A stretch of 64,000 nucleotides of DNA, taken from positions 743,501 through 807,500 of the forward strand of contig OY848924.1 in the NCBI GenBank assembly GCA_963693285.1. Direction: 5' to 3'. The position numbers and the translations under genes were made by a program. Source of the DNA: Xestospongia muta. Lineage: Eukaryota; Porifera; Demospongiae; Haplosclerida; Petrosiidae. Below are positions 14,501-61,209 of the stretch, one piece after another. Under the pieces are notes generated by a model, which saw only the letters and a list, made by a program, of their open reading frames with translations, had not been told where the DNA came from and ran no database searches. Position 1 is the first letter of the stretch. Each line of letters opens with the position of its first letter.

Positions 14501-17500
14501 TGGTTTGTTCGCATGACATTCACCTGAACAAACAATGAATAATATTAAAATATACTCAGCGCTAATTGCACTTGATTAGGTGAGAAAATACCTCACCTTA
14601 CATTCCATGCATACAACACCTTTTTTTAATGAAGGGCCCAACTCAACTTGGACAGAGTATAGCTATCCATATTAATCCTATGGTATCACTGCAAATCTTC
14701 TATCATAAAGTAGATCTTTATCTATCTATTAGTGAATGTTAGTATTAATGTCTTGTAATCATTTCAGATAATAAAGTGTACTTTAATATGTTGGATATAG
14801 TTATATAACACTGTACATGGTCATGTACTTTATACATAGTTAATAATGGAGCTTCTGGTTGATGAAATCTGGGTCATGTGACATTTATGTACATGTGTAT
14901 TCCTAGTATATACTGTTGTATTTATTATAATGTACATTATCTGTATTTACTTATTGTGATTTCTTAGGATGAAATATTGTTAACAGCTGCTATAAGAGGA
15001 CTAGTAGATATAGTGAAAGAAGCTTTAAAGAAGAATGCTAATGTGAATGCTAAAGACCAAGATTATGTAAGTTATATCTTATTATAATAAATGACTCTTT
15101 TCTAGTAAATGATAACTCATTAATTTCACAATTATAAGTTTATTTAAAAAACAATATAATATTTTCATGAGACGTCAGATATACAAGATTTAATGTTTGA
15201 ATAATATTTTTTATCATGAAATATTCAAAACCTAATGAGCTATACTGTATATGTTATGACATTGTAATATAGAAATCAATATGATGATGAAAACACTAGG
15301 ACATTGTAATAGTTTGTGTGTAGATACCAACAATTGAAAACCAAAGTATGATACTCAAAGCCACAGTACATAGTAAGAATTCACAGTTCAATGTATAATT
15401 TGACTTCTATGTTATGAACTTACTATATCTATATACCACAATAAATAATTTTGTTGTATTGCTGTAATAGACAAGGAATTAGACTAATTCTGTCATCAAC
15501 AAAGTCAATGCTTCATCTGTGTACACATATATTTTTAAACTGTTACTAACTCTATAGTATGATGTTCAACATTGCTGTGATATCTTCACTATACTATAAC
15601 TGATTACCAGACTTAGTTATATTCTCTTACTGTAGTATTTTAAATATTGTAGTAGTCACATTTTCATTCACATTCTTTGTTGTTTTATTATTAGGATGAT
15701 AATACAGCTTTGCATATATCCTCAGATAGTGGTTACACTGAGATAGTCCAAGTTCTGCTACAGTCAAATGCAGATCCTAACATTTATAACAAGGTCAGTG
15801 TGTATTATATATAGTTTATATTTCATTTATTATCTCTACTACATGTACATATATGTAGTACTACCTGTCTAGTAGGACAGGATATAGATCAAAGTCAATG
15901 TAATGAATACAATTAAGTTAACCTTTTCATGCCATGTAATTAATTTTCAATGTAATTTGTGTGGATGGGACAAAGTAGCTTTCATTTGTTGTTTGATATA
16001 TAACAATTACTAATATGACTGGAAAATATAATAAAGCTAATATGTAAAACAATATATAAAACATTAATGTGTTCTTACATGAAATAAACCTGATCAGTCC
16101 TAAGATTGTTTTGGACCATGTGTGTATGTATATTTCTATATATGTCCACTTTAACAAGTTTAATCTATTATTATTATTAAACAATTTATTTCATTTTTTA
16201 GTTGGGACATAGTCCACTTCATTTAGCATACTGGTATGGTCGTGATAACATTGTCGAGCTCTTATGTTCTTTTGGAGGAGATATGGACCAAGTTAGAAAT
16301 GTAAGTGATAAATGTAATAATATATTTACTGTATATGATGACATGGACATAGTGATCTTATATGTTATGATATATTATAAACATGACCTAATTATATGTG
16401 GGTACATGTCACAGTTATAATATATTATTTATTTTAACAGGATGACTTACTTTTGACTTCAGCTAAAAATGGTGATATAGAAAATGTAACTCTAGCACTT
16501 ACATCAGGTGCTAATGTCAATGTTCATTATGGTGATGATAAGGTTAGTACACTGATTAAATAGTAATAAATTACTGTTGTTTGTTAATATTTACTGTTTA
16601 AAGTAATATGTTATACCGGGAGTTATTAGCGACGATAAAATTTGGCGGAATTGTAAAATTTATAATTGGCAAAATTAAATTTGACAAATTTAGCACATGT
16701 CTTGTTACCACACCCACTTTAGCCATTCAGCCACGATATTTCATGTGTACAAATAAAAAATGTGGGTGTGGCAACTGCGTAAAAAAATTTGACAGTTATT
16801 TATTTGGCAATTTTTTGAAAATCGCCAATTCGCCAAATTTTATCGGTTGCCAATAAATCCCAGTATACGGTATATTCTATAACAAAGGAGATCAATTACA
16901 AGCGTTTAAGAGATTTAGCCCCACCCACTCTTATAAACATTGTTCATCTAGAAAGCAGTTTAATCTCTCTTTTCCTATTTCCATAAGACTTCTCTATCAT
17001 TTACTTTATTGACATTGTCATACAATGTTAATGAAGAAGAAATTTTTAACCCACAACTTTAATTAATATGTATTTTTTGACATTCTGTCACATTTCCTAC
17101 TAACCTTGTACTATTAGTATAACTTTTTTTTTTTAATTTAACTACATGTAACAACTTCCAATGTAGTTAGCAACAAATGAATTTAATTTACTCTTTTTAT
17201 CTGTAATTCAACCTGAACATGTGAACAATAAAATTAATACTTGTGTACTTCCTTTAGGGTCAGCTAACATCTCTACATTATGCATCAGCAGGAGGTTACT
17301 ATGATATCGTACAACTATTGTTAAAGTCAAGTGCAGATCCTAACATTTGTAACTGGGTCAGTGTATATTGTTTGTAGAGATTACTACATGTTACTAGATT
17401 TAAATCAGTATTTAATAGATATAGAATGTTATGGGTGTGGCTGTTAGTAATTTCTACATTGACCTGTTGTTCAAATTTTTGTTAGTAAAGGATTAACAAA

Positions 17501-20500
17501 GATAGTCAGTGTCAGGTATCAGTAGGTGTGGTCTGTTATAATAGTAGTATTTATTGTTGGAGACATCTTGGTATTCACAGAGGTCCCACTAGTATGTTAT
17601 ACCATTTGTGTCAAACTGTTCTGATGATTGTAGACATTGTATCATTAACATTATACTGTACTTTTATACTGTTACTAGACTTACAGCCAAAGCTTGAATA
17701 CCAAATCCTTGAGCATAGGAAAAACATCCAGTAGTAAGCCATTTTAATTTTAATTTTGAGATAGGAGATGTACCATTCAGTCCAAACTTGAAGTTATCTG
17801 TTTCCTAGAAGTGTGGTTAAATGATGGTATAGCCATTAGTATCTTATCTGGAGCTGTCCTTAAGACATCTAAATTACCTATGGTTACTAATATAACTAGA
17901 CCCCTCCCCTTAAAAAGTTAAACCTTAACATTGATGGCATACTTGAGATATATCGCAATTGGTTACCAACAGCTTAAGATTATTGAAGAATAATCTCTCT
18001 TCTCATAGAAGGACTAGCACTATATTGCATATCAGTGGGTGTGGTTTATAAAATAATAAAGTAATATTACAATAATCAATCAGGACAGGAAACTATTTGT
18101 TAATTATTATACAAAATGACTTTATAATTAGATTTAAAAAGGTCACTTTATTTTATATTATTAATAACAAACATATAACTTTCATAATATATTACAATGA
18201 AATCTCCATAGAACATCTTCTCATTGGTTATAATACTTAGAAACCCTATACCTTTTAAATGTAGTTATAAAGTCAAGTTTAAATATTTATATCATGTTAA
18301 TAGAATTGATAATCATTATAAGTGTGGTAGTTATGATAAGTTTGTGACCTAAATGACCTAGTTTATTATTGATGACAATGTTTATAGTAAACTGATACTC
18401 ATTTAATATCTTAGATAGTTTCTATGTCTTTTTATGTTCCTGTCATTGGTCAGGTTTGACATGATAATACAATAGCTATGATTATCTGTATTGATGACTG
18501 TTATATTGACTATATAGTTTATTGTATGATAGTTCCTGTACTTTTTGTAATTGAATAACTTTTCCTCTTTTGTTTTCTAGTATGAACTAACACCAACACA
18601 TCTTGCAGCAGTGGAGGGTCATGTTAATGTTCTAAAGTTATTAATTGAAGAGGGACAAGCTGACATAAATGCTACAAATAATGTAAGTCATATTATAGTT
18701 ACTTATGAGCTATTCCTTTGAAGTATAATATTTAATATTGTCTTCAATATTGATATCAACCTCACTCATATCCAAACTGTCCAATATTTTGATAACATGT
18801 TTTTGGCAAAAGATGTTCCAAGAACAATAATCAAAAATAAAATTTTGATATTTGCCTACAATGTGTCAAACATAACCTGTTGTCATTACATCAATCAATG
18901 ACAATATTTATTAATAATCAATTAATTAATAGTCATGAATAATTAATACACAAAATTTAGCATGCTCTATGTCACCTTTATTGTGTGCTTCTTGGTGTAA
19001 CTTGTACCATAATGATGACATCACTATATGTCATGTGTTGATAATGGTAGTATAAATGTATAGTTTAGGTTTTCTGAGTTTAGAAGGTTAAGGCTTTAGG
19101 GTGCTTCTTGGTAACTTGTAACTTGTACTATAATGACATCAATATGTGTCATGTCATGATGATGTCATCATATTCGAGTTACACCAAGAACCTCTCCCTT
19201 TATTAGCCCTCCCACATATATACACATACTCTTGTGTTTTACCTGTCTGTTTGTGGCTTCAATAGTTTTTGATCCTCTGTTATAATACACTTTATGTTGA
19301 TTTTCCTATAATTGGGTAATAGCATTCTTAGGAACTTTATATATTCTAAATAGATCACCAATTTGAGGTGGAAGTACATTAACATGTGGACAAGCCATTT
19401 TGTTTATTTGTATTTATAACAAATGTTCACATGATCTAATGGACACATAGTGAGTGATACAAGGTAGCATAAGTTAGTAAAAGACAGTCTGTGCTTCTAT
19501 ATGAAAGATCATCACTACATCCAATACATACCATAACAGCCATTTTGCATTTTCACTCTCTTAACACATGCTCACATATATCTATACTTTACCTACATCC
19601 TCATTCCTGTTGTATGAGTCCTATATGTACTTGTCCCCAGACCCTTCATCTCTTAGGGAAGGGTTGGCAATGTCAGACTAATATTGGTAATCTTTATTAA
19701 CTAGTTAAAGAGGTAGTCTTTGATATGATCTCTAACATATGTACATACTTTTAGTCTTTGGACTTGTCATGTCAGTCTTCCTTGTCATTGTATAATGTAC
19801 AAGACTTTCTTTTGAAATATTTAGTCTTTTTTCTTATGACTATATACTGTTTAAAATAATATATTCTATAACAAAGGAGATCAATTACAAGCATTTAAGA
19901 GATTTAGCCCCACCCACTCTTGTAGACATTGTTCATCTAGAAAGCGGCTTAATCTCTCTTTTCCTATTTCCATAAGACTTCTCTATCATTTACTTTATTG
20001 ACATTGTCATACAATGTTAATGAAGAAGAAATTTTTTTAACCCACAACTTTAATTAATATGACTATTTTGACATTTTGGGAAACTTCCTACTAACCTTGT
20101 ACTATTAGTATAACTTTTTGCCAAATTCAAGTTTATCAAAAGACTATTATTATATTTGTAAACTAGTAGATTTGTATTTATTGATATAATCTTGTCTTTG
20201 GTCAATGATATTCATGGTCAGTGAATATCAGCTCACAAATGACATGAACACTTCTATTATTAAACTCAATGTACCTAACATTTGAAGTCTACCTATCATT
20301 AAAAGAATCCTGGTATTCATAGAAGTACCACTAGATTTCTAAAACTAGTACAAACTTGTTATCTTGTTATTAGTAAGAATTGTGGTTAGAAAATGTTGTG
20401 GTTATTATTATTAAAGAAAAAGTAGACATATTTAAAACTACTAAAAGATGTGTATAAGATGTCTAGAGCAGTGTGAAGGTGAATAATATCAAAGACAAAG

Positions 20501-23500
20501 TTGGAACCTAAGTATATAGAAATTATGTTAGAAATAATAAAGTTTACTCTATCAGGAACAGAGTAAAAATAGATATCAAAGTCACATTTATTATTAAATC
20601 TAGTATATGACTGTGTGAGGAAAACCCTGCATATCCACATATTAATTTAACATTAATTATCTATTGTGTTTCATGTCCTACATGTTACTAGATTGAAATC
20701 AGTATTTAATAGACATAGAATGTGGTTCATTTTATTATTGGTATATATTATAATATTCCATAAAATTTAATGCTATTATAATCAACAATAAATACTTGTG
20801 TACTTCCTCTAGGATCAGAAAACAGCTCTACATTATGCCTCACAAAGAGGTTACTATGATATTGTACAACTATTATTAAACTCCAATGCAGATTCCAACA
20901 TTTGTGACAGGGTCAGTGTATATCATTTGTAGAGATTACTGTAGTTCCCTGAGTAAGCACCCAAGGGCGTTTACAGTTCATTTGCAATTTAAAAGGGGTG
21001 GGCGCTTACATGCGATTTTTCAAAAACGGCTTCTAGTAAGCGCCCACTTATAAATAATTAATTATTCACCGTGAAGTTGAAGCTGTCTACATCATACATT
21101 CCGTATGTATGTATGATGTAGAAGTTGAAGCTGTCGAGACTCTGAGAATTCACCCAGAGCATAATGTATCTGTTATAGCAAAGAAGTATAGACAGAAAGC
21201 ATATTAGAGAATGGGATAAGCAGTTTGACAAGCTTCTCGACTCACAATAACGATACACTGTATAGTCAAGGACAAAAGAAGATCCTCCATTGAGCAAGGA
21301 GGTTTAGAGGTGCCTTGTGATCTGACCTTTTCAATTCCAAACGGAAGAAAAGACAACAAAATTATAATGTCTAAACTTAGAAAATTGCTAGCCTAACTTA
21401 TTTCTCTTTGCTCAACATGTGATAATAACCACAAATCTAAAAGGGTAGGGATGGGGGTGGGCACTTGCACGGGGAATTGACATTTTCCTTTAAGGACAAA
21501 ATTAAGGGGGTGGGCACCTGTTCAGGGAACTACAGTACTACATGTTACTAGATTTAAATCAGTATTTAATAGATATAGAATGTGGTTCATTTTATTATTG
21601 GTATAAATTATAATATTCTATAAAATTTAATGCTATTATAATCATCAATAAATACTTGTGTACTTCCTCTAGGGTCAGCAAACAGCTCTACATTTTGCAT
21701 CAAAAAGAGGTTTCTGTGATGTCGTACAACTATTATTAAACTCTAATGCAGATTCCAACATTTGTGGTGAGGTCAGTGTATATCATTTGTAGAAATTACC
21801 ATAGTTCCCTGAGTAAGCACCCATGGACGCTTACAGTTCATTTGCAATTTTAAAGGGTTGGACGCTTACACGTGATTTTTCAAAAACGGCTTCTAGTAAG
21901 GGCCCACTTATAAATAATTAATTATTCACCATGAAGTTGAAGCTGTCTACATAATACATTCCGTATGTATGATGTAGAAGTTGAAGCTGTCAAGACTCTG
22001 AGAATTCACCGGGAGCATAATGTATCTGTTATAGCAAAGAAGTATAGACAGAAAGCATATTAGAGAATGCAATAAGCAGTTTGACAAGCTTCTCGACTCA
22101 TAATAATGATACGCTGTACAGTCAAGGACAAAAGAAGATCCTCCATTGAGCAAGGCGGTTTAGAAGTGCCTTGTGATCTGACCTTTTCAATTCCAAACGG
22201 AAGAAAAGACAACGAAACTATAATGTCTAAACTTAGAAAATTGCTAGCCTAACTTATTTCTCTTTGCTCAACATGTGATAATAACCACAAATCTAAAAGG
22301 GTAGGGATGGGGGTGTCGCTTGCACGGGGAATTGATATTTTCCTTTAAGGACAAAATTAAGGGGGTGGGCGCTTGCTCAGGGAACTACGGTACTACATGT
22401 TACTAGATTTAAATCAGTATTTAATAGATATAGAATGTTATGGGTGTGGCTGTTAGTAATTTCTAAATTGACCTGTTGTTCAAAGTTTTGTTAGTAAAGG
22501 ATTAACAAAGATAGTCAGTGTCAGGTATCAGTAGGTGTGGTCTGTTATAATAGTAGTACACATAGTTGGCAATGATCTTGGTATTCACAAAGGTCCCACT
22601 AATATGGTGTGTACATGTCATTTGTACCTAAAGCCTAAACCCTAAACAAGTGAACATCCATAAGAAGAATAGCCAATAGTGAACCATTCTATTTTAATTT
22701 TGAGATAGACCATACTCTAGACATGTAAATCAGGTACAAGGACATTATCTGGATGTTACCAAGAGGTGTGGTTAAAAATGGTCCAGCTATTAATAATACT
22801 GGTAGTCATTAATTAATCGTGTAGATTACATATTACAGTTAAATCACTAAACCAGTTAATCGAACATCACTACTATAGTCCCAGTTGTTTCTTATGATTA
22901 AACTTTTATAAATTAATTAATATATCTGTGGTAGTTGTAGTTTGTTATTTTCATTACATGTACTTCATAGTGACAATAAGAAGATGGAGCATACATTATG
23001 GATGTTGAATAAGCTTATGTCATCCATGGATATATGTTACTCACTAGATGTTAAACTCCCTATATCCTGAATATATTAACATGTAATAGACATTGCTATT
23101 ATAATAAACTTGTGGTTACATTGAGAATACACAGTTACCCCTTAATTCTGATAGACAAAGAGTAATGTCATGGAACACTGTCTTATCTGGAGCTGTCCTT
23201 AACACATCTAAATTACCTATGGTTACTAATATAACTAGACCCCTCCCCTTAAAAAATTAAACCATAACATTGGTGGCATACTTGAGATATATCGCAATTG
23301 GTTGCCAACAGCTAAAGATTATTAAAGAATAATCTCTCTTCTCATAGAAGGACTAGCACTATATTGCATATCAGTGGGTGTGGCTTATAAAATAATAAAG
23401 TAATAGTTTCTATGTCTTTTATGTCCCTGTCATTGGTCAGGTTTGACATGATAATACAATAGCTATGATTATCTGTATTGATGACTGTTATATTGACTAT

Positions 23501-26500
23501 ATAGTTTATTGTATGATAGTTCCTGTACTTTTTGTAATTGAATAACTTTTCCTGTTTTGTTTTCTAGTTTGGTAGAACAGCAGCACATTATGCAGCAGAG
23601 GAGGGTCATGTTGATGTTCTAAAGTTATTAATTGAAGAGGGACAAGCTGACATAAATGCTACAGCTAAAGTAAGTCATATTATAGTTACTTATGAGCTAT
23701 TCCTTTGAAGTAAGACATTTAATATTGTCTTCAATATTGATATTAATATTGTTTCCAGACACTTGTCTCCTAGTCAAGGACTTTAAACAAGTTTATAACT
23801 GCTGCTCTAATTGCTTTTGTGTATAGAGCTGTTGATACACGTAACTGAGCAGCTGTAATACACAAAATTTAGCATGCTCTATGTGACCTTTATTATGTGC
23901 TTCTTGGTGTAACTTGTACCATAATGATGACATCACTATATGTCATGTGTTGATAATGGTAGTATGAATGTATGGTTTAGTTTTTTGAGTCTAGAAGGTT
24001 AAGGCTTTAGAGTGCTTCTTGGTAACTTGTAACTTGTACTATAATGATGACATCATTATGTGTCATGTTGTGATGATGTCATCATATTCAAGTTACACCA
24101 AGAACCACTCCCTTTATTAACCCTCCCACATATATACACATACTCTTGTGATTTACCTGTCTGTTTGTGGCTTCAATAGTTTTTGATCCTCTGTTATAAT
24201 ATACTTTATGTTGATTTTCCTATAATTGGGTAATAGCATTCTTAGGAACTTTATATATTCTAAATAGATCACCAATTTGAGGTGGAAGTACATTGACATG
24301 TGGACAAACCATCTTGTTCATTTGTATGTAAAACAAATATTCACATGATCTAATGGACACATAGTGAGTGATACAAGGTAGCATAAGTTAGTAAAAGACA
24401 GTCTGTGCTTCTATATGAAAGATCATCACTACGTCCAATACATACCATAACAGCCATTTTGCATTTTCACTCTCTTAACACATGCTCACATCTATGTATA
24501 CTTTACCTACATCCTCATTCCTGTTGTATGAGTCCTATATGTACTTGTCCCCAGACCCTTCATCTCTTAGGGAAGGGTTGGCAATGTCAGACTAATATTG
24601 GTAATCTTTATTAACTAGTTAAAGAGGTAGTCTTTGATATGATCTCTAACATATGTACATACTTTTTGTCTTTGGAGTTGTCATGTCAGTCTTCCTTGTC
24701 ATTGTATAATGTACAAGACTTTCTTTTGAAAGATTTAGTCTTTTTTTCTTATGACTATATATCAAAAGTATTCTTCAAAATTATTATAACCAAGTTAATC
24801 TGTTTATTTGTCATCATATTACACATGAAATATATATTATATTACTTATAACAATACAGTTGTTATTTATATTTTCACTTTTTAAATTTTAGGGTGGCAA
24901 TAATCTACTACATTTTGCCTGTGAAAGTGGCAGTGAAGAAACCATACACTACCTTTTACATAATGTCCAGTTAAATCCAGATTATCTAGTAGCTCTAAAC
25001 AATCGTCATCAAATGCCACTGGATTGTATTCCACCACGTGTATCTAGCAGTAATAGATTTCGATTACTGAAGTTGTTTCAACCATTCAAACAATGTCACA
25101 GAGACTACCTCACAGAATCATATTCTAAATTGTTTCTATGTGGAAAGACAGAAGCTGGTAAAAGTTCATTGGCTGCTGTTATCTCTTATCGTGCTAACAA
25201 GTCGTCTTTTCATGACTATGATCCAGAAGAATGTATTGAAGGTGTTGTATTACAAACCACTGGAATTGAGTACCACAGTGTTCGTAGTGAGGAAATAGGA
25301 AATGTTGTAATTTATGATTTTGCAGGACATGCAGAATATTACAGTAGCCATGCTGCAGTACTGGAAACTCTCTTGTTGAGGTCACCAGCTGTCTTTGCAA
25401 TTTTAAGCAACCTTACCGATGATGAGGAGACGATTAAGAAAGACCTGCTTTTCTGGTTTAACTTTGTTGAAAATGTAAGCATGAAGTTGATTAGCTCAAG
25501 TCAAGTACTTGTCCTTGGAAGTCACATTGATGAACTGTCCAGTGAAAAAGACTTCCAACCTTTTGTAAATGACGTAGCTAATCTGGCTGTTCATTTTCAG
25601 AATTACAAAGGGTTTTTCCCAATAGATTGTCATCGACCAGCAGGAAAAGGTGTAGAGATGTTTATGAAGAAATTAAGAGAGAGCTGTAAAGCTGTTGTGG
25701 ACAAAAATGATAAGATGAGCTACCACTGCCACTGTCTAAATTCTTACCTTCAACAGCTGGAGGAGGTTGCTATTAGCCTAGATGAGCTGTGTTCCAGATT
25801 AATGGAACTAAATGAGCCATGTCTTTTGACCGATCAGTCCATTGTGTTAGAATTTTTGACCATTCTTGGAAGTAAGGGTCTCATTTTGTTTCTGGCTAAC
25901 ACATGGGTGATTATTAACAAAAAGGCTCTCTTAACTGAGGTAAATGGTGTCTTATTTAATAAAAGCATTGATCGTGTGGGTAAACCAGTTGCCAGTAATA
26001 CTGGTATAATGGCTGTCTCTACTCTAGCTAACCTTTTCCCTAAACACAATACAGATATGCTGATTCGCTTCTTAACAAGTCTACAATTTTGTCATCAAAT
26101 GGACTCTTATGCTGTTTCTAGTATCACTAACAATGTACCATCTGATGACTTCACTATTAGTAAAGATGAGAATTTTTTATTTTTTCCTGCACTTATTACA
26201 GAAGACAAACCCACTTCAATCTTTGAAACAACAGATGGATTTGGTTGGTGCCTATGGTGTGATGTACCACAGCAATTTCTCTCCATGCGTTTTCTCCATA
26301 CTCTTCTTCATCACTTAGCTTATACTTGCTGTCCTCCTCCTCCCGAAAAAACTGGTTATATTACTGATAATCCGACAACTAAAGCATTACATCGAGTCTG
26401 TACTATGTGGAAAAGTGGTATTTATTGGAAAGAGGAAGAGAGTAATATTGAGGTGATGGTTGAAGTGACTGAAGCCAACCGATGTGTTACAATTCTTGTG

Positions 26501-29500
26501 TCTCACAGCAGTTTAATAGAAAGTTATCAACTCCGTACATCACTCATCAAAGAAGTACTTAAACTTAAAAAAGAATTATGTCCATGTACTTCAAAACAGT
26601 TTATTATTCCACCTGGTGATGTTAAGGATGTCATGGAAAAGGAACAGAGAAATCGTATCGTCTTTTCTGTTAGAGAAGTTGCTAAAGGAGTACTATTGAA
26701 AGGAACTGCTACTTCCACTTACGATGAAAAAGTTGCTGTCCATTTAGTCGTTGGTAAAAAGGAACCATACCTCTGTATTGCCCCTCTTGTGACCAAAGCT
26801 CTCTTTACCGACACCAACAAAGATCTACCACTACCAGATCACTATGTCCGACATATAGAAGACATATGTGGAGAGATCATGTCCCTCTATCCATCATCAG
26901 ATTTTACACACCACTCTGTAAGAGAACATCTCAGCAAATTCAGTATTTTTGCTGGACGTAATCCTTTGGTAAGTTTATATTATCTTAATAGTGTGTCTAT
27001 GAAATTGTTTTATCTTCTCTACATAGAGTATACCTTCTCCACCAATAAAAGATGAAGTAATACAAAGATTATCAAAACATGTTCAGACAAGAACAACAAA
27101 AGGTTCTAATTATGTCATTATTCGATTGTATTGACTTAGTTATTATTACAGATTTTATTAACCCTGTTACCAAACCTGACAAACAGATGTCATCATCTAT
27201 TACATACAATGTTGGAGGTATGTCTACATGTCAAGAAAATGTATTTAGTTCATTTATTATTTAGTTTTCATGTTTTTATATCTACTACATTTATATTTGA
27301 TTACTTTCATTAATTGTTATATATTGTTATATTACAGGTAGTAGTCAGGAGACAATATTAACAAAGGATAGTTTAACTGATGAATTCAGTCATTTCCCTA
27401 AATTATGTATGTTAGACAATCTTATATAACAGTTCTTTATCTTATTGTACTTACAGTGGAAAGACCTACAAGACGTGAACTTTTAATGCAACTAGCTTTT
27501 ATCAATTTTCAATGGCGTAACATTGGTAATGGTCTTGGAGTGAGTTACAATGACCTTCAAGGTTTGGCTGAACGTAATGATTCAAATCAAACAAGGCTTG
27601 ATCGAGTCATTCAAAATTGGTTGGACATGAATGGTCAAGGTGAAGGTGCTCCTGTCACTTGGATGACCATTATAGATGTCATCAAGGGACCACTTGTTCA
27701 GAACATAACTCGAGCAAGGAGGATATATGAGTACCTGAAACAAAGTTCTGTACAACAGGATAGTCAAAGTAAGTGGACAATATGAGTTTTAAATGCTATA
27801 ATTATATTGACTGCTAACATAATAATACGATGGTCACTAAAGAGGTAATTAATTTACTCACATCAGCCATATTGGAGGTCACTTTAGGAGACATTTTGTC
27901 ATGGCTTTGCAACTATGTTTAATTGTTATGGAACATGATAATAAAATGTTGACTATGAGATAATTGGAAAGTTTGCCTGTTAAGAAAATAAACAGTTTCA
28001 ATTTTCAAGCTATGATTTTGTACATATATTTTATTATAGGTAGTAACAGTGAACATGTTGGAGAAGAGTCCTCTAGAACTCATGATAATAATGGTACATA
28101 TATACGCTAGTATATACTATGTTCATTGTTGTAACTACAATTTTATAGGAGGTGTGGTACAAACTGACAAGAACACATGTGATGAACAAACTGATGGTAA
28201 GTTACTTTATCAATATCATTTAACCTGTACATGATTATACAATAACTCCTAATGGTAATTGTTCATGTCCTTCATAATATAGGTGTTAATAAAAGTGTTA
28301 GTGAGTCTATTACTGAGGACAGTCACAGAGTAAATGGTAAGTTTATTATTACTATAATTAGTAAATGTGGTTCATTACATCATTGTACACATACACAAAT
28401 AAATTATGAATGTATCGTATTTTCTTATTTTCTAACTGTTCACATATTATATATACTTTAATATACATGTTATATAACAATTATGTTGAAAAGCAATGTA
28501 ACTATTAACATATAATTGTCACTTTGTTCTACTCAATATTCTATAGAATTTGCTAAGAAATCAAGTGCTCCTGACTCAACTGAAGGCTCTATTTCTAACA
28601 ACTTATCAATAGAACATCAGGTATGATTTATCCTCTTATAAAGTAGATTGTATTAATTATAATCATTAACAAATTTAATTTTTTAAAATATTAAGGGTTA
28701 TTCCTCTTGCCAGTAAGTAGCTATTAACATAATAGCTTCTTTCAGTAGATTAGTGACGAGATACTCAATAGCTTAATGTGAGAAAGGGTATCTAACATAT
28801 TCATAGGTAAGATAGCAGATCTCAGTGATTGCTCAACATGATGTCAAAAGTAGTTTTCACATTAAGCAAGTGGGTGTCTTGTCCTGTGACTGAGTCTACT
28901 GAGCAGTTATATCACTATATGTAGCCACACCCATGAAGCATTCTTTGTGGTTGTGGGTTCTTAGAAGCATTCCTAAGTTTGACATAGATAGATTGATAGT
29001 TTCACTATGTGACAATAATTACTACTAACAATTACATTGTAATTCCTCACCTCCAGTCTTATCAATATTATAAACAATAGTTACATCATCAATCTTGTGT
29101 ATTATAATACTACAATACTTTACACCTCATACATTATCACTTATATCCTGTATCCAATAGCAACATTCTACTAATGAACTATCAAGTGAACACAAAGCAG
29201 ATACTCTCCCTAGTGATACTACACAACAAGGTAATATAAGACACCTAAATAATAAACACTACATATAATGTATGTGATGATTGTGTTTGTATAGAGTTAT
29301 TTTATAGTCTAGATTGTTATAGTTGACATAAGTAGTTTATATATGTTGATAAATAGACTACTTAGAGTTGTATTAGCTACCTATAACCACACAATAGAGG
29401 AAGGAGCATGCAACTTCCCTCTGACAGCTGGTACATGAAAGTTAATTAATTTGTGACAAAATCAAGTGGAGGTTAATTAGAATGTACACTTTAGGTTTTT

Positions 29501-44792: not shown

Positions 44793-44831
<39 letters not shown>

Positions 44832-46485: not shown

Positions 46486-46633
46486 GTTAGTTTTAAATAA
46501 TAATTTTGTTTCTGGTATAAATGTCATTCAATAAAATTAGCAAGAATACTTAATACATGTACTTATTACGGAAAAGTGACATAAAAATAATTAATGACAT
46601 CTCAAACTAGCAATGTTAATTGTGAATTTAAAT

Positions 46634-48357
46634 CTTGTCACTATGTCTCTAAGCAACTTGCATTTCGAAAAAACATTGCCCTTATAGCCACAGACAAGGA
46701 TGGTCTGTACACTGCTTCTTCTAGTGAAGGTACATAATTATTATATATTATGGCTTATAACTACTAACATTATTGTGGTGTTTGAATTAGGTACTCTGAG
46801 TGTGAGCAATGATGCATGTCAGTGCAAGTTTTTGAGTACAATGAAACTGCCTTGCAGGGACATGTTTGCAGTACATGAAAAAGAAGGTGTTTCTCTTTTG
46901 TCAGCAAGGGATATTCCTGACCGTTGGAAGATGTCTTACCTTCAGCAGGTGTTTAGAATCATGAAGCAGCAGCAAATGATGAGACTTATCAAGTAACTCC
47001 AGTAAGTTATATTATGTCAGTTAATTATATAGTTGTCTCTTAAGTGTATGTCCACAGAACAAAAGGAAACAGTGCTGTCTCAACATGACAAATTCAGGAG
47101 AGCCAAGGCAATAATTGAGCAATTACCTTCTCTTGCTTCAGAAGTTGGAATGGATGAGTTCAAGGAGTGAATAGATGTATTGGAGCAATTGCATAGTATA
47201 TGGGAAAGAGGTGGACTGGCTGTTGTCACTGAGGAAGTAGCTTCTAGTCATCAGTGCTTTGAAATGATTGGTAAGTGTAAATATAGTATTAGTTATACCT
47301 GATTTTAATTTTCACAAATACAGATGATAATTACAAAGACAATGAAGGTACAGACACATTACATGAATGTTTATTAGGTGTACTTTTTAGATAATCTGGA
47401 TTGTCTAATACACTGCTTAAATGAAGATGTTGGATATGTCAATGATCTAGATAGTACCAGTGTTGACATCCAGAGTGAAGGTTTCTTTACTGCCATTAAT
47501 TTCGAACATCTGTTGATTACTTTCAGATAATAATGAGAACATAGCAGGTAGATCTAGTATTGGAGATACACAATGTGACTCAGATAAGGAGAACAATGGT
47601 GAGTATATGTACAGTATATGTTTACAGTTGTTATATGTAGGTAACATTATTTCAGGTCTAGATAGTGTTAAACTACCACCTAAGATGAGGAAAAGGGGAA
47701 GGCCTAAGGGAGCAGAGAAAACAGTTATAGGTCTGCCTAATAAGAAACAAAAACTAAACAAGCCCATTACCTTCTTAAAGAAACCTCCTGTTGACAGAGA
47801 GAAGGGTATGTGACCTCTAACTGCATTCTTAACAATTAATTAATATTTTATAGTAATTTTGCTCTGGTTTGTTGACCCCATTATTGCTGAGGCTGCCATT
47901 TCCCGTAAAGCTTTGATTAAAGATCAGGTGGAGATAAGGCCTGAGAAAGTGACTTCTTCTTGTTTGGATCCACAAGTGTGCCTAGAAATATGCAAGAAAT
48001 ACTTCACAAGAAAAGCCTGGTTAGCAGTAGAAGACATAATTGCTACCATAAAAGGAAGCCCTCTGTTGTATTGTGGCAGATGTAGAAGTCCTATCAATGA
48101 TGAAACTGAGTCATCCATACAATGTGATAGTTGCTTAATTTGGTACCATTTTAAATGTATCAACTTGCATAATCTACTAAAGTCTAAACTTTGGTTATGT
48201 AGATCTTGTCATAATAATAAATACCTGTGGTCAAGTTTGATTTTTGAAATCCAAAGTCACAGCCATGTGCATTGCGTCCGTCTACGTCCGGATATGACAC
48301 TGCCGGACCTGTAGTGCTGGAAAACTCAATCCAGCTGCTGGACCTCTAGCTGCTGCG
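46634..48357 (+). mobile_element. Truncated second MULE copy
   Basis: This copy matches the first element from about 5944 to its right end, including the right terminal repeat and the following AAAATCATT (48358-48366). The left half is missing, and the left junction (CTTGTCACTATG) joins unrelated ankyrin intron sequence. Confidence 0.9.
46639..48314 (+). pseudogene. MULE transposase C-terminal half
   Basis: It keeps the SWIM region (the last pair reads CRDM where copy 1 has CRHM, so the zinc-binding His is lost), the AT-hook KRGRPKG (intact NKKQK here) and the PHD finger (47859-48314). A TGA at about 47167 replaces the CGA seen in copy 1 at about 6478. The DDE core is absent. Confidence 0.85.
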
Positions 48358-52200: not shown

Positions 52201-55200
52201 TATATGTTGGATATAGTTATATAACACTGCACATGGTCATGTACTTTATACATAGTTAATAATGGAGCTTCTGGTTGATGAAATCTGGGTCATGTGACAT
52301 TTATGTACATTTGTATTCCTAGTATATACTGTTGTATTTATTATAATGTACATTATCTGTATTTACTTATTGTGATTTCTTAGGATGAAATATTGTTATT
52401 AGCTGCTGCAGAAGGACTAGTAGATATAGTGAAAGAAGCTTTAAAGAAGAATGCTAATGTGAATGCTAAACACCAAAATTATGTAAGTTATATCTTATTA
52501 TAATAAATGAATACAATTAAGTTAACCTTTTCATGCTATGTAATTAATTTTCAATGTAATTTGTGTGGGTGGGACAAAGTAGATCTCATTTGTTGTTTGA
52601 TATATAACAATTACTAATATGACTGGAAAATATAATAAACCTAATATGTAAATATTAATGTGTTCTTACATGAAATAAACCTGATCAGTCCTAAGATTGT
52701 TTTGGACCATGTGTGTATGTATATTTCTATATATGTCCACTTAAACAAGTTTAATCTATTATTATTATTAAACTATTTATTTCATTTTTTAGTTTGGACA
52801 TAGTCCACTTCATCTAGCATACTGGAATGGTCATGATAACATTGTTGAGCTTTTATGTTCTTTTGGAGCAAGAGATATGGATCAAGTTAGAAATGTAAGT
52901 GATAAATGTAATAATATATTTACTGTATATGATGACATGGACATAGTGATCTTATATGTTATGATATATTATAAACATGACCTAATTATATGTGGGTACA
53001 TGTCACAGTTATAATATATTATTTATTTTAACAGGATGACTTACTTTTGACTTCAGCTGAAAATGGTGATATAGAAAATGTAACTCTAGCACTTACATCA
53101 GGTGCTAATGTTAATGTTCATCATGGTTATAATAAGGTTAGTACACTGATTAAATAGTAATAAATTACTGTTGTTTGTTAGTATTTACTGTTTAAAGTAA
53201 TACCGTATACCAGGATTTATTAGCGACGATAAAATTTGGTGGAATTGTAAAACTTATAATTGGCAAAATTAAATTTGACAAATTTAGCACATGTTTTGTT
53301 ACCACACCCACTTTAGCCATTCAGCCACGATATTTTATGTGTACAAATAAAAAATGTGGGTGTGGCAACTGCGTAAAAAAATTTGACAGTTATTTATTTG
53401 GCAATTTTTTGAAAATTGCCAATTTTATCGGTTGCCAATAAATCCCAGTATACGGTATATTCTATAACAAAGGGGATCAATTACAAGCATTTAAGAGATT
53501 TAGCCCCACCCCCTCTTATAGACATTGTTCATCTAGAAAGTGGTTTAATCTCTCTTTTCCTATTTCCACAAGACTTCTCCATCATTTAATTTATTGACAT
53601 TGTCATATAATGTTAATGAAGAAGGAATTATTTAACACACAACTTTAATTAATAGACTATTTTGACATTTTGTCACACTTCTTGCTAACCTTGTACTATT
53701 AGTATAACTTTTTTTTTTAAATTTAACTACATGTAACAACTGCCAATGTAGTTATCAACAAATGAATTTAATTTACTCTTTTTATCAGTAATTCAACCTG
53801 AGCATGTCAACAATAAAATTAATACTTGTGTACTTCATTTAGGATCATCAAACAGCTCTACATTATGCATCAGAAGGAGGTTACTATGATATCGTACAAC
53901 TATTGTTAAAGTCAAGTGCAGATCCCAACATTTGTGACATAGTCAGTGTATATTGTTTGTAGAGATTACTACATGTTACTAGATTTAAATCAGTATTTAA
54001 TAGATATAGAATGTTATGGGTGTGGCTGTTAGTAATTTCTACATTGACCTGTTGTTCAAATTTTTGTTAGTAAAGGATTAACAAAGATAGTCAGTGTCAG
54101 GTATCAGTAGGTGTGGTCTGTTCTAATAGTAGTACATATAGTTGGAGACATCTTGGTATTCACAGAGGTCCCACTAGTATGTTATACCAATACCATTTGT
54201 ATCAAACTGTTCTGATGATTGTAGACATTGTATCATTAACATTATACTGTACTTTTATACTGTTACTAGACTTGTAACCAAAGCTTGAATACCAAACCCT
54301 TGAGCATAGGAAAAACATCCAGTAGTGAGCCTTTTTAATTTTAATTTTGAGATAGGAGATGTACCATTCACTAGACGTATAAATCAGGTCCAAACTTGAA
54401 GTTATCTGTTTCCTAGAGGTGTGGTTAAATGATTGTATAGCCATTAGTATCTTATCTGGAGCTGTCCTTAACACATCTAAATTACCTATGGTTACTAATA
54501 TAACTAGACCCCTCCCCTTAAAAAGTTAAACCATAATATTGATGGCATACTTGAGATATATCGCAATTGGTTGCCAACAGCTTAAGATTATTGAAGAATA
54601 ATCTCTGTTCTCATAGAAGGACTAGCACTATATTGCATATCAGTGGGTGTGGTTTATAAAATAATAAAGTAATAGTTCTATGCCTTTTTATGTCCCTGTC
54701 ATTGGTCAGGTTTGACATGATAATACAATAGCTATGATTATCTGTATTGATGACTGTTATATTGACTATATAGTTTATTGTATGATAGTTCCTGTACTTT
54801 TTGTAATTGAATAACTTTTCCTCTTTTGTATTTTAGAATGGACAAACAGCAGCACATTATGCAGCAGAGAAGGGTGATGTTGATGTTCTAAAGTTATTAA
54901 TTGAAGAGGGACAAGCTGACATAAATGCTACAGATTATGTAAGTCATATTATAGTTACTTCTGAGCTATTCCTTTGAAGTATGACACTTAATATTGTCTT
55001 CAATATTGATATCAACCTCACTCATATCCAGACTGTCCAATATTTTCATAACATGTTTTTAGCAAAAGACATTCCAAGAACAATAATCAAAAATAAAATT
55101 TTGATATTTGCCTACAATGTGTCAAACATAACCTGTTGTCATTATATCAATCAATGACAATATTTATTAATAATCAATTAATTAATAGTTATGAATAATT

Positions 55201-58200
55201 AATACACAAAATTTAGCATGCTCTGTGTGACCTTTATTGTGTGCTTCTTGGTGTAACTTGTACCATAATGATGACATCACTATATGTCATGTGTTGATAA
55301 TGGTAGTATGAATGTATGGTTTAGTTTTTTGAGTTTAGAAGGTTAAGGCTTTAGGGTGCTTCTTGGTAACTTGTAACTTGTACTATAATGATGACATCAA
55401 TATGTGTCATGTCATGATGATGTCATCATATTCAAGTTACACCAAGAACCACTCCCTTTATTAGCCCTCCCACATATATACACATACTCTTGTGATTTAC
55501 CTGTTTGTTTGTGGCTTCAATAGTTTTTGATCCTCTGTTATAATATACTTTATGTTGATTTTCCTATAATTAGGTAATAGCATTCTTAGGAACTTTATAT
55601 ATTCTAAATAAATCATCAATTTGAGGTGGAAGTACATTACATGTGGACAAGCCATTTTGTTCATTTGTATGTAAAACAAATATTCACATGATCTAATAGA
55701 CACATAGTGAGTGATACAAGGCAGCATAAGTTAGTAAAAGACAGTCTGTGCTTCTATATGAAAGATCATCACCACATCCAATACATACCATAACAGCCAT
55801 TTTGGATTTTCACATGCTCACATCTATGTATACTTTACCTACATCCTCATTCCTGTTGTATGAGTCCTATATGTACTTGTCCCCAGACCCTTCATCTCTT
55901 AGGGAAGGGTTGGCAATGTCAGACTAATATTGGTAATCTTTATTAACTAGTTAAAGAGGTAGTCTTTGATATGATCTCTAACATATGTACATACTTTTTG
56001 TCTTTGGACTTGTCATGTCAGTCTTCCTTGTCATTGTATAATGTACAAGACTTTCTTTTGAAAGATTTAGTCTTTTTTCTTATGACTATATACTGTTTAA
56101 AATAATATACCATAATTAGCTTTTTTTTTGTTGTGAAATATGTTTGTTTCACCCTTGATAAACGAAATTTTTGCTAATTGAAAATTTCTATTTAATGTCT
56201 GTTTCTAATAACTACTACAGCATACCTATCAACAGGATTTGTTGGTTGTTTCACACAAGTTAGCTGCTCACTAATAGCCGCTATCCATATGGCCTTATAG
56301 ACATGGTATCCCCTTGTGCAACAGGGCACGTTATTCTTTATTACTTGAGCCATTACAACATGTGGTCTCACCTTTGTATAAAAATTTCACTTTAGCAAAA
56401 TTTTCGTTTAATTAGAGTCGGACGAAAATTTAGCAACACGAAATTATTTGAAATGAATATTTTAAGAACAAAATAAAATCTAATTACGGTATTCTATAAC
56501 AAAGGAGATCAATCACAAACATTTAAGAGATTTAGCCCCACCCACTCTTGTAGACATTGTTCATCTAGAAAGCAGTTTAATCTCTCTTTTCCTATTTCCA
56601 TAAGACTTCTCTATCATTTACTTTATTGACATTGTCATACAATGTTAATGAAGAAGGAATTTTTAACCCACAACTTTAATTAATATGACTATTTTGACAT
56701 TTTGGGAAACTTCCTACTAACCTTGTACTATTAGTACAAATATTTGCCAAATTTAATTTTATCAAAAGACTATTATTATATTTGTAAACTAGTAGATTTG
56801 TATTTATCGATATAATCTTGTCTTTGGTAAATGATATTCATGGTCAGTGAATGTCAGCCCAGAAATGACATGAACACTTCTATTATTAAATTCTATGTAC
56901 CTAACCTTTGAAGTCTACTTAGTTTGTGGACTAACAATATAGTAGGTAATCATTAAAAGAATTTTGGTATTCACAGACGTACCACTATGTTTGTAAAACT
57001 AAAGTCTGATCGCATTCACCTTGCTGATAGAAAAATTATCATAACTTTCTAATAACTCAACCAAATTCAAAAGTTCAAAGTCAGGTGGTCTCCTGATGAC
57101 CATCCGGTTCTTTTGATGTCATTATCTATATAACACAACCCACAAGAACAAAATTTGTTGTATTTTCCATAAGCAAAGTATAGGAGATGCCATTGACCAC
57201 GAGGAATGTGATCTCATGAATTTGTTAATCAATGAAATGGCTGGCACTTAAAGAGACAATCCAGTACGGTAAGAAATACATTCTAACTGTAAAAGTTTAG
57301 TCATATAGTTTCAATAAAGTATTCTGAGCTCATTTGGTGATGATAGTCTGCTGAGTTTATCTTAGATCTAAAAACCAAGTCTGTACCAGGAACCCAACCT
57401 TCCACTCAACCAGCTTGAACCACAATAAACTGTTGACTTTTCCCACTTGGCACCTTCCATTTTCCTTTACCATCAACATCTACCCAAATATGTTCTTTAC
57501 AGTGATGTGTGTTTGTTTACCCATGTTTCGTCAGTATAGATTATTGTCCTCTTGTCATTTCTTAGTTTACGTATTGTTTGCAAGTATGTATGTCTTTGTT
57601 CCAGTATATTATGTTGTTTGTATATGTATTGTTTATTGTCTCTTTTCTTGTATGAAAACCCCAACTCTTGCAGAACCTTCCATAAACAAAACCTACCACC
57701 TCCAAAAATTCCATCCCCTTTTAATTTAGCTAAAGTAGTAGTCAGTGTTAGATATTGTCATTGTGTGTAAAAGCTATAAACAGTATGTCATATTACTTCT
57801 TTATTAAAAGAGTCTGGATTCATGCATACCCTAGATGTTATGTATCGTTTAACATGAGTCAGTAATTTTCTTTCTCGAGAAACATATTCGTTATGAATGT
57901 TATGCACACTTCTTATTGATACACCTGTAGCCTCTGTTGTATGTATGTACAATAAACAATGTTGTTGTATTGCTGTAATAGACAAGGAATTAGACTAATT
58001 CTGTCATTAACAAAGTCAATGCTTCATCTGTGTACACATATATTTTTAAACTGTTACTAACTCTATAGTATGATGTTCAACATTGCTGTGATATCTTCAC
58101 TATACTATAACTGATTACCAGACTTAGTTATATTCTCTTACTGTAGTATTTTAAATATTGTAGTAGTCATATTTTCATTCACATTCTTTGTTTTTTTATT

Positions 58201-61200
58201 ATTAGAATGATGATACAGCTTTGCATTTAGCCTCACATAATTGTCACACTGAGGTAGTCCAGTTGCTGCTACATTCAAATGCAAATCCTAACATTTATAA
58301 CAAGGTCAGTGTGTATTGTATATAGTTTATATTTCCTTTATTATCTCTACTACATGTACATATATGTAGTACTACCTGTCTAGTAGGACAGGATATAGAT
58401 CAAAGCCAATGTAATGAATACAATTAAGTTAACTTTTTCATGCCATGTAATTAATTTTCAATGTAATTTGTGTGGGTGGGACAAAGTAGCTCTCATTTGT
58501 TGTTTGATATATAACAATTACTAATATGACTGGAAAATATAATAAACCTAATATGTAAAACAATATATAAAACATTAATGTGTTCTTAGATGAAATAAAC
58601 CTGATCAGTCCTAAGATTGTTTTGGACCATGTGTGTATGTATATTTCTATATATGTCCACTTTAACAAGTTTAATCTATTATTATTATTAAACAATTTAT
58701 TTCATTTTATAGTGGGGACATAGTCCACTTCATATAGCATACTGGTATTATCATAATAACATTGTTGAGCTCTTATGTTCTTTTGGAGGAGATATGGACC
58801 AAGTTAGAAATGTAAGTGATAAATGTAATAATATATTTACTGTATATGATGACATGGACATAGTGATCTTATATGTTATGATATATTTTAAACATGACCT
58901 AATTATATGTGGGTACATGTCACAGTTATAATATATTATTTATTTTAACAGGATGACTTACTTTTGACTTCAGCTGTAAAAGGTGATATAGAAAATGTAA
59001 CTCTAGCACTTATATCAGGTGCTGATGTCAATGTTCATCATGGTGGTCGTTATATGGTTAGTACACTGATTAATTAGTAATAAATTACTGTTGTTTGTTA
59101 GTGTTTACTGTTTAAAGTGATACCTTATACCGGGATTTATTAGCGACAATAAAATTTGGCAGAATTGTAAAATTTATAATTGGCAAAATTAAATTTGACA
59201 AATTTAGCACATGTCTTGTTACCACACCCACTTTAGCCATTCAGCCATGATATTTCACGTGTACAAATAAAAAATGTGGGTGTGGCAACTGCATAAAAAA
59301 TTTGGCAGTTATTTATTTGGCAATTTTTTGAAAATCACCAATTCGCCAAATTTTATCAGTCGCCAATAAATCCCAGTATACGGTATATTCTATAACAAAG
59401 GAGATCAATTACAAGCATTTAAGAGATTTAGCCCCACCCACTCTTATAGACATTGTTCATCTAGAAAGCGGTTTAATCTCTCTTTTCTTATTTCCATAAG
59501 ACTTCTCTATCATTTACTTTATTGACATTGTCATACAATGTTAATGAAGAAGGAATTATTTAACCCACAACTTTAATTAATAGACTATTTTGACATTTTG
59601 TCACACTTCCTACTAACCTTGTACTATTAGTATAACTTTTTTTTTTTAATTTAACTACATGTAACAACTGCCAATGTAGTTAGCAACAAATGAATTTAAT
59701 TTACTCTTTTTATCAGTAATTCAACCTGAGCATGTCAACAATAAAATTAATACTTGTGTACTTCCTTTAGGAACATCAAACAGCTCTACATTATGCATCA
59801 GAAAGAGGTTACTATGATATCGTACAACTATTGTTAAAGTCAAGTGCAGATCCCAACATTTATAACATGGTCAGTGTATATTGTTTGTAGAGATTACTAC
59901 ATGTTACTAGATTTAAATCAGTATTTAATAGATATAGAATGTTATGGGTGTGACTGTTAGTAATTTCTACATTGACCTGTTGTTCAAATTTTTGTTAGTA
60001 AAGGATTAACAAAGATAGTCAGTGTCAGGTATCAGTAGGTGTGGTCTGTTATAATAGTAGTATTTATTGTTGGAGACATCTTGGTATTCACAGAGGTCCC
60101 ACTAGTATGTTATACCATTTGTGTCAAACTGTTCTGATGATTTTAGACATTGTATCATTAACATTATACTGTACTTTTATACTGTTACTAGACTTCCAGC
60201 CAAAGCTTCAATACCAAACCCTTGAGCATAGGAAAAACATCCAGTAGTGAGCCATTTTAATTTTAATTTTGAGATAGGAGATGTACCATTCACTAGATGT
60301 ATAAATCAGGTCCAAACTTGAAGTTATCTGTTTCCTAGAGGTGTGGTTAAATGATGGTATAGCCATTAGTATCTTATCTGGAGCTGTCCTTAACACATCT
60401 AAATTACCTATGGTTACTAATATAACTAGACCCCTCCCCTTAAAAAGTTAAACCTTAACATTGATGGCATACTTGAGATATATCGCAATTGGTTGCCAAC
60501 AGCTTAAGATTATTGAAGAATAATCTGTCTTCTCATAGAAGGACTAGCACTATATTGCATATCAGTGGGTGTGGTTTATAAAATAATAAAGTAACATTAC
60601 AATAATCAATCAGGACAGGAAACTATTTGTTAATTATTATACAAGATGACTTTATGATTACATTTAAAAAGGTCACTTTATTTTATATTAGCAATAACAA
60701 ACATATAACTTTCATAATATATTACAATGAAATCTCCATAGAACATCTCATTGGTTATAATACTTAGAAACCCTATACCTTTTAAATGTAGTTATAAAGT
60801 CAAGTTTAAATATTTATATCATGTTAATAGAATTGATAATCATTATAAGTGTGGTAGTTATGATACGTTTGTGACCTAAATGACCTAGTTTATTATTGAT
60901 GACAATGTTTATAGTAAACTGAGACTCATTTAATATCTTAGATAGTTTCTATGCCTTTTTATGTCCCTGTCATTGGTCAGGTTTGACATGATAATACAAT
61001 AGCTATGATTATCTGTATTGATGACTGTTATATTGACTATATAGTTTATTGTATGATCGTTCCTGTACTTTTTGTAATTGAATAACTTTTCCTCTTTTGT
61101 TTTCTAGGTTGGTATAACAGCAGCACATTATGCAGCACAGAAGGGTCATGTTGATGTTCTAAAGTTATTAATTGAAGAGGGACAAGCTGACATAAATGCT

Positions 61201-61209
61201 ACAGATAGA
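49208..61209 (+). CDS. Second ANK gene, paralogue of the ANK-GTPase gene, 3' incomplete
   Basis: Start ATG at 49208 in exon 49158-49246 (MATQLSEREQWRI). Ankyrin exons: 50144-50236, 50632-50718, 52384-52482, 52793-52894, 53035-53136, 53843-53941, 54837-54938, 58206-58304, 58713-58811, 58952-59056, 59771-59869, 61108-61209. All are open, phase 0, with good splice sites. Class order A-B-C-E-F-G-H-D-E-F-G-H differs from the first gene: the D exon is missing after C, and a D-E-F-G-H block is added. The final 1 kb of the window matches 22437-23455, just upstream of the first gene's last ankyrin exon. The next ankyrin exon is therefore expected about 110 bp past the window, with the GTPase exon roughly 1.3 kb after that. 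The hAT and piggyBac-like insertions of the first gene are absent here. Confidence 0.82.
51297..52050. mobile_element. Left-truncated copy of the 13859-14661 element
   Basis: It matches the interior and right end of that element (final AACTCAACTCGGACAGAGTA-type end at 52050) but lacks the left inverted repeat. It lies in intron 4 of the second ankyrin gene, at the same place as in the first. Confidence 0.68.
53200..53458. mobile_element. Palindromic MITE, family 1, copy 2
   Basis: Same family as 16612-16872. Its left end is better preserved (ATACCGTATACCAGGATTTA) and mirrors the right end TCCCAGTATACGGTAT. Confidence 0.75.
55242..55449. mobile_element. MITE, family 2, copy 3
   Basis: Same inverted ends as 18987-19192, in the intron after the class H exon at 54837-54938. 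Confidence 0.72.
56107..56492. mobile_element. MITE, family 3, copy 1
   Basis: Short inverted ends ATACCATAATTAG and CTAATTACGGTAT. The interior also mirrors itself (GTTTCACCCTTGATAAACGA... against ...AATTTCACTTTAGC). Second copy at 62317-62701. No coding potential. Confidence 0.65.
57300..57985 (-). pseudogene. Tc1/IS630-type DDE transposase relic
   Basis: Read on the minus strand. 57985-57788 gives an N-terminal helix-turn-helix piece (ATGVSIRSVHNIHNEYVSRE, then NPDSFNKEVI), and the same frame runs through two TGA stops into LQELGFSYKKRDNKQYIYKQ and IIYTDETWVNKH (first catalytic Asp within YTDETW). After a frameshift near 57500 it continues WVDVDGKGKWKVPSGKSQ, VEGWVPGTDLVFRSK and SADYHHQMN. 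This order is that of DDE_3-type (IS630/Tc1-like) transposases. The C-terminal DDE block is missing. It sits in the long intron between exons 54837-54938 and 58206-58304 and is absent from the equivalent intron of the first gene. Confidence 0.78.
59120..59386. mobile_element. Palindromic MITE, family 1, copy 3
   Basis: Same family and same position relative to a class F exon as 16612-16872 and 53200-53458. Confidence 0.75.

Follow-up and report, generated by a model that had tools for sequence, protein, structure and literature searches.

An ankyrin-ROCO-death gene family in the sponge Xestospongia muta with amino-acid diversity concentrated at presumed ligand-contact positions

The nearest precedents for the sponge genes described here appear to be the LRR-ROCO genes of brown algae and the ankyrin-repeat NLR genes of fungi (these and the following comparisons draw on the available portions of the cited reports). 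In the brown-algal genes, the ROC-COR module lies behind the repeat array, each leucine-rich repeat (LRR) occupies one exon of symmetric phase, the exons are shuffled, and positively selected sites lie on the concave, presumed ligand-binding face; the products have been proposed as immune receptors (PMC11378527). In the fungal genes, positive selection acts on the ankyrin repeats, for the most part on residues of the concave face and the hairpin, and concerted evolution is possible (PMC4986451). The stretch analysed here is 64,000 nucleotides of the Xestospongia muta genome (assembly GCA_963693285.1, contig OY848924.1; C8:743501-807500, where C8 is the contig, hereafter the window). Judging from its sequence, it holds one nearly complete gene (gene 1) and the first part of a second (gene 2), both apparently members of a large tandem family encoding ankyrin repeats, a ROC-COR GTPase and a death domain. 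The algal genes have 72-bp phase-2 LRR exons in the order LRR-ROC-COR (PMC11378527), whereas the sponge family has ankyrin repeats on 99–108-bp phase-0 exons, a death domain and an animal owner. The fungal genes have a NACHT or NB-ARC core, other effectors and a repeat number that varies within loci (PMC4986451), whereas the sponge genes have ROC-COR, a death domain and the organization of a tandem multigene family.

None of the titles and abstract openings listed from the open-licence literature, outside which most subscription journals fall, describes a diversifying ankyrin-ROCO-death family in an animal, and the animal version appears to be new. DAPK1 carries ankyrin repeats. The DAPK1 group of ROCO proteins also combines ROC-COR with a C-terminal death domain, has no LRR and is exclusively metazoan, but in DAPK1, the one human member, a kinase precedes ROC-COR (PMC6337361). 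The sea-anemone genes NG1 (LRR, ROC/COR and TIR_2) and NG3 (kinase, death, TIR and ROC/COR) likewise join ROC/COR to immune-type domains in an early-branching animal and were proposed as novel immune genes, but their domain combinations are others, and the available text describes neither an ankyrin array attached to ROC-COR nor an exon or site test (PMC5094078). In sponges, the TRADD-N expansion of Amphimedon, where death-like domains often accompany ankyrin repeats or SH3 plus LRR (PMC8195603), and the sponge NLRs (PMC12909245) are huge lineage-specific families that pair death-fold domains with repeats; their domain order and central domain differ, and neither one exon per repeat nor a site test is described in the available portions of the two reports.

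In the splice model of gene 1, ankyrin repeats are followed by a ROC-COR GTPase and then by a death domain in the terminal exon. Each ankyrin repeat is a single phase-0 exon of 99–108 bp, and repeats could therefore be gained, lost or exchanged in frame. Their identity as ankyrin is clear from Pfam (PF00023, E = 4.4e-65; PF12796, E = 9.8e-58), which gave no LRR match. The Pfam Roc profile scored 21.4 bits in the window protein, under the cut-off of 27, and 27.3 and 27.1 bits in homologues P0114 and P0078. The P-loop motif GxxxxGKSSL is invariant across the 23 homologues aligned for structure (from 120 listed of 806), and the fold of the GTPase module matches the ROC-COR of LRRK1, LRRK2 and Roco. 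The COR domain follows directly upon ROC, the arrangement that defines ROCO proteins. In the 720-residue open reading frame (ORF) holding the GTPase, Pfam gave no NACHT or NB-ARC match and the fold is that of ROC-COR, so the protein does not qualify as an NLR. No kinase match was found among the ORFs scanned, a set that covers part of the upstream ORFs. The Pfam Death match is borderline (22.5 bits against a cut-off of 22.6, E = 1.3e-4).

The ankyrin exons fall into classes, and class H carries the clearest pattern. The class E, G and H exons named in the first-pass annotation lie where it placed them, are open and are flanked by AG and GT, and the codon states it quoted for the four class H exons of the window (18581–18682, 23568–23669, 54837–54938 and 61108–61209, forward strand, as are all exons below), namely Y/F/N/V, L/R/Q/I, VE/EE/EK/QK and NN/AK/DY/DR, are correct. 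The near-identity of their introns is likewise real: between these four copies, 0–2 of 101 upstream bases and 1–4 of 55 downstream bases differ, compared with 6–16 of 102 in the exon. A search of the 158-Mb assembly (28 contigs), the one assembly on which the analysis rests, yielded 71 class H matches, 62 of them near full length after nine with less than 85% query coverage (one L005, eight L007) were set aside; 60 were intact, and 57 remained for tree, linkage and bootstrap once three exact duplicates had been taken out. The two copies taken as disrupted, at C8:1301278 and C8:1721066, have 7 extra bases in the exon alignment. Positions are numbered on the 33-residue ankyrin repeat, with the register assigned from the GxTxxHxAA motif, and a PDB search with the repeat aligned it to ankyrins and designed ankyrin repeat proteins (DARPins).

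With the other genomic copies aligned, the 60 intact class H exons display the pattern of the window. In the five contact codons (positions 2, 3, 5, 13 and 14), the first two bases (10 columns) have a mean diversity of 0.477, compared with 0.041 over the 212 nearby intron columns (153 upstream and 59 downstream) and 0.070 over the other exon columns; when 10 of the 314 columns were drawn at random 100,000 times, the contact value was never reached. Non-synonymous divergence at the contact positions is 0.412, or 10.2 times (bootstrap 8.4–12.8) the nearby intron divergence between copies of 0.040, and the proposal that these positions outrun their introns is thus upheld by a wide distance; at non-contact sites, non-synonymous and synonymous divergence are 0.065 and 0.050. 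An intron comparison extended by 150 flanking bases (pairwise 0.100, with its own tree) was not used further: divergence rises abruptly in the distal flanks, a sign, in our reading, of poor homology there. When the four window copies are removed, the remaining 53 give the same picture, with an intron divergence of 0.0415, non-synonymous values of 0.411 at contact and 0.065 at other positions, and 0.052 for synonymous sites outside the contact codons; the pattern therefore holds out of sample. By codon, non-synonymous diversity is highest at positions 2, 3, 5, 13, 4 and 14 and zero at 12, 17, 20 and 33, the last being Thr in 60/60 copies. The variable positions originally proposed were 1, 2, 3, 5, 13 and 14; all stand except position 1, which is Asp in 56/60. 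Copies with similar flanks behave alike: in 16 disjoint pairs with a flank distance below 0.03, the counts were 38/3,350 for intron, 90/205 for contact non-synonymous and 9/35 for contact synonymous sites, and 70.5/1,062 and 11.5/330 for other non-synonymous and synonymous sites.

A per-codon likelihood test on a rate grid, with branch lengths from the introns, was run on two trees, one built from flank plus exon and one from flank only. On the first tree, the shared synonymous rate was 1.0 times that of the intron, and the highest non-synonymous rates were 50 (position 3; the top of the search grid), 32 (13), 22 (2), 10 (14), 10 (10), 7 (5) and 7 (4), sizes that are unreliable and not to be taken at face value, given that exon distance is uncorrelated with flank distance and linkage is short. 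Measured against the synonymous rate, p values (uncorrected for 34 codons) were 1e-9 (3), 0.003 (13), 3e-4 (2), 0.018 (14) and 0.007 (5), with two further sites, 22 and 28, at 0.013 and 0.033. With the flank-only tree, the shared synonymous rate was 2.0 and the six leading sites (3, 13, 2, 14, 10 and 5) were unchanged. On both trees, non-synonymous rates at 3, 5, 13, 14 and 2 exceed both the intron and the synonymous rate, in keeping with the per-site excess that had been predicted, and the tree-free contrast between contact non-synonymous sites and intron is independent of the decoupling of exon and flank. These results support a reading in which the contact positions would be under diversifying selection.

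The same positions are used in protein design. The classical DARPin set, which we take to be 2, 3, 5, 13, 14 and 33, has five of its six members among the top six of 34 codons (hypergeometric P = 1.3e-4), but it includes position 33, invariant in class H. The available text of two DARPin papers speaks of 'six positions' without numbers (PMC8683736, PMC9611651). An artificial ankyrin library that randomises 2, 3, 5, 10, 13 and 14 and holds 26 and 33 constant (PMC3308923) coincides exactly with the six top-ranked class H positions, a match made post hoc and with designed proteins.

Classes E (24 copies), F (24 copies) and G (12 copies found, of which three more divergent ones were left out and nine used) were tested against the intron rate only. 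The expectation that classes E and G would repeat the class H pattern held for the most part in class G and only in part in class E. Class G varies most strongly at positions 3, 5, 13 and 2, with Gly occupying position 14 in 8/9 copies; class E varies at 3, 5 and 14, but position 13 is Trp in 24/24. Sites above the intron rate in class E are 3, 5, 10, 14, 21 and the residue after Gly27, with some others weaker. Variation in class F falls on six of the last eight codons, which form the hairpin, and on codons 9 and 21, and the exon ranges from 99 to 108 bases in length. In two arrays that belong to another subfamily, the variable sites include 5, 9, 10 and 13. Simple counts give contact non-synonymous and intron divergence of 0.418 and 0.102 for the five exons at C8:740 kb (synonymous 0.213) and of 0.250 and 0.135 for the 11 exons at C8:834 kb.

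Frequent exchange between copies, or else recurrent change, appears to have separated the histories of exons and introns. Upstream and downstream flank distances are weakly correlated (rho 0.20), and the 77 pairs whose flanks differ by about 0.8% have a contact difference of 0.426, equal to that of more distant pairs. Linkage is down to background past about 10 bases and is weak rather than nil, with 5/15 pairs among the six variable codons associated at p < 0.05. Common variants are concentrated in the exon, which has 21 of the 27 such columns in 102 of the 314 columns aligned. Exchange together with selection seems likelier than recurrent change, because the codons at positions 3 and 5 vary little in their third base (0.10 and 0.04, versus 0.52–0.68 at first and second bases) and most residues use one codon; at position 3, for example, Phe is TTT in 13/13 copies, Val GTT in 9/9, Asn AAT in 8/8 and Asp GAT in 7/7. 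Swapping of whole exons as cassettes was rejected as the sole source of diversity, given the background linkage within the exon past about 10 bases. Adenine-directed mutagenesis of the kind seen with diversity-generating retroelements was put aside by eye, with no template search made: codons at position 5 have a fixed A as their third base (56/57), and conserved neighbouring codons keep their adenines.

We consider it probable that diversifying selection, together with exchange among copies, acts on a tandem family of ankyrin-ROCO-death sensors, and that these serve immune recognition through the ankyrin face. A number of observations weigh against this. Flank and exon distances are uncorrelated between copies (rho -0.04). 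Positions 10 and 4 do not differ significantly from the synonymous rate (p = 0.15 and 0.81), at position 1 the excess is synonymous (p = 0.029), and non-contact residues also outpace the intron, by 1.6 times. Synonymous diversity at the contact codons is itself raised, to 0.260 by ordinary counting, partly through multi-step paths, and a strict count restricted to same-residue codons still gives 0.114 (0.031–0.202) versus 0.044 elsewhere; the third base of position 14 is more diverse than its second (0.226 and 0.035), that of position 2 reaches up to 0.49, and locally older variation or local mutability may be at work. In classes E, F and G, the shared synonymous rates are 3, 1.4 and 2 times that of the intron, non-synonymous and synonymous rates are equal over the whole class E exon, and in the C8:834 kb array synonymous divergence exceeds non-synonymous over the exon (0.264 and 0.179). 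The copies were gathered by likeness to one window exon (40/242 DNA and 150/523 protein candidates scored), and more divergent ones are therefore missing. On the structural side, the first (start) exon of gene 1 was not found, matches to the ROC-COR tandem fold have query TM-scores of 0.34–0.46, and the ROC exon of the sole gene pair compared is not under strong constraint (dN/dS 0.66).

Several of these points would suit concerted evolution without positive selection, in which gene conversion homogenises introns and scaffold while the contact codons keep old neutral variation: exon and flank distances are uncorrelated, linkage is short, just 2 of 212 intron columns have a diversity above 0.3, and the contact codons are synonymously diverse. 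However, free variation lifts non-synonymous change up to the synonymous level and never above it, synonymous sites elsewhere in the 102-base exon are near the intron (0.050 vs 0.040), and same-residue contact codons are mostly identical, unlike old neutral variation, all of which makes this account improbable. We give even less credence to a germ-line or somatic mechanism that hypermutates the contact codons specifically, with selection no more than ordinary. The synonymous diversity of those codons is again in its favour, and positions 3 and 5, 6 bases apart, are unassociated (p = 0.23), which fits recurrent independent change; yet mutation indifferent to the encoded residue would also fall on the third bases at 3 and 5, which are largely fixed, along with the neighbouring codons, most of which are conserved, and no base-specific signature is evident in the codon table (a dedicated template search was not part of this analysis). 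Relaxed constraint on decaying copies, to which the 2 disrupted copies among 62 might point, is scarcely credible when the other 60 retain an open frame and splice sites, several residues of the scaffold never vary, and contact non-synonymous change runs above the neutral yardsticks.

Selection may also be real and its role other than antimicrobial immunity, in allorecognition, symbiont tolerance or dealings with fast-evolving internal partners. Fungal repeat-bearing proteins of this kind act in allorecognition. Repeat sensors followed by a death-domain effector are, on the other hand, typical of immune and cell-death signalling. The fungal proteins have been discussed for non-self recognition (PMC4986451), but microbial molecules raise ankyrin-repeat and death-domain transcripts in two sponge species (PMC6208332; with no link to the present genes), and we regard a non-microbial role as rather unlikely while taking it seriously.

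Given the architecture, an immune function is likely. Scaffold residues, introns and the death exon (one pair compared) differ little from copy to copy, while ligand-facing positions 2, 3, 5, 10, 13 and 14, and the hairpin tip in class F, would be held diverse by selection and their variants shuffled by exchange. The ankyrin face would most likely bind variable non-self or altered-self molecules, a bound ligand would switch the ROC-COR GTPase, and the death domain would relay the signal to death-fold adaptors. A bolder possibility, advanced tentatively, is that the family is a natural germ-line library of ankyrin paratopes, with dozens to perhaps hundreds of genes diversified at the very positions that protein engineers picked on their own, mixed by exchange, set before interchangeable ROC-COR-death effectors and used for anticipatory recognition; if so, an early-branching animal would have a parallel to antibodies, lamprey variable lymphocyte receptors and plant NLRs. 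Intracellular sensors diversified into large repertoires are familiar as NLRs, and for brown algae a repertoire built on ROCO proteins has been put forward. An animal repertoire that is built on ROCO proteins, senses through ankyrin repeats and is coupled to a death domain would mean that separate lineages reached the same solution, and it would offer a natural set of binding surfaces whose ligands could be hunted directly. The layout of one repeat per exon makes the origin of the repertoire testable, be it exchange between copies, alternative splicing or both.

The remaining exons of the two genes are arranged as follows. In gene 1, ankyrin exons of class C (14968–15066), D (15695–15793), E (16202–16300), F (16441–16542; its 3' end, the hairpin, is hypervariable and length-variable among copies) and G (17258–17356) precede the first class H exon, and two more of class G (20813–20911 and 21673–21771) lie between the two class H exons. 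Behind these two consecutive class G exons are near-identical stretches of about 600 bases (20940–21540 and 21800–22390, read by eye), which look like an insertion duplicated along with its exon. The exon at 24893–26968 encodes a last ankyrin-like repeat and the ROC-COR module, and is followed by three linker exons modelled from splice sites and frame (27027–27102, 27152–27217 and 27338–27406) and the terminal death-domain exon (27457–27785). Gene 2 has exons of class C (52384–52482), E (52793–52894), F (53035–53136) and G (53843–53941) before its first class H exon in the window, and continues with D (58206–58304), E (58713–58811), F (58952–59056) and G (59771–59869) before the second. Past the window, its array has three more class H exons, then a divergent type of ROC exon (C8:814015-816141) and a death domain (C8:816511), to which, from order and orientation, it appears to be spliced. 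The E-F, G and H exons of gene 2 with their flanks are 89–96% identical to their gene 1 counterparts, whereas the ROC exon that follows shares 44.5% identity with its gene 1 counterpart, and the death domain 30% with the gene 1 type and 42% with another type (found in the window at 389–1054); thus, like sensor arrays precede unlike effectors.

A further gene at C8:869 kb was compared with gene 1 as a single pair. Their death exons are identical (0/329 differences), and their ROC exons differ in mosaic segments (dS 0.104, dN 0.069), with a synonymous distance of 0.55 in one 60-codon block and 0.03–0.13 elsewhere, a jump that is a sign of mosaic exchange. Counts of family members are lower bounds. 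The ROC exon has at least 62 copies (395 first-look candidates; all 62 scored matched at ≥63% identity, from 63 match rows, as one exon is split over two), with 49 on C8, 11 on C3 and one each on C1 and C9. The class H exon with flanks gave 242 candidates, and the 40 scored all lie on C8 at 92–100% identity; for E+F and G exons, 40 each were scored of 118 and 307 candidates. Arrays of 7–12 ankyrin exons, one repeat per exon in tandem units of about 257 or 277 bases, are found at C8:834440-837357, C8:740609-742489 and L007. NACHT domains are a separate matter: 98 matches were obtained in 102 scored of 155 candidates, mainly on C12, C2, C1, C3 and C4, with none of the listed matches on C8, while C1 and C3 carry both NACHT and ROC at separate places. 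The assembly also contains three Wnt loci, as befits an animal genome.

Other elements of the window lie outside the two genes. The ORF at 389–1054 (+), apparently the end of an upstream gene, contains the other type of death-domain-like stretch, which has about 34% identity with the gene 1 domain and no Pfam match; like copies are present at C8:734 kb, 838 kb and 849 kb. A transposase-like ORF at 10844–12532 (-), presumably hAT-like, matches DUF4371 (E = 4.5e-26), and a second, putatively transposase-like ORF is at 10285–10941 (-). Near-identical PHD-finger ORFs at 7155–7631 and 47844–48314 (+), 40 kb apart, each have a near-identical antisense ORF beside them (6758–7150 and 47447–47839, -), and the PHD-finger pair is perhaps a repeated element. 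The ORFs at 4200–4586 and 5500–5832 (+), with matches to ZSWIM3_N (2.2e-06) and, below threshold, DUF5575_C, are perhaps a transposon remnant.

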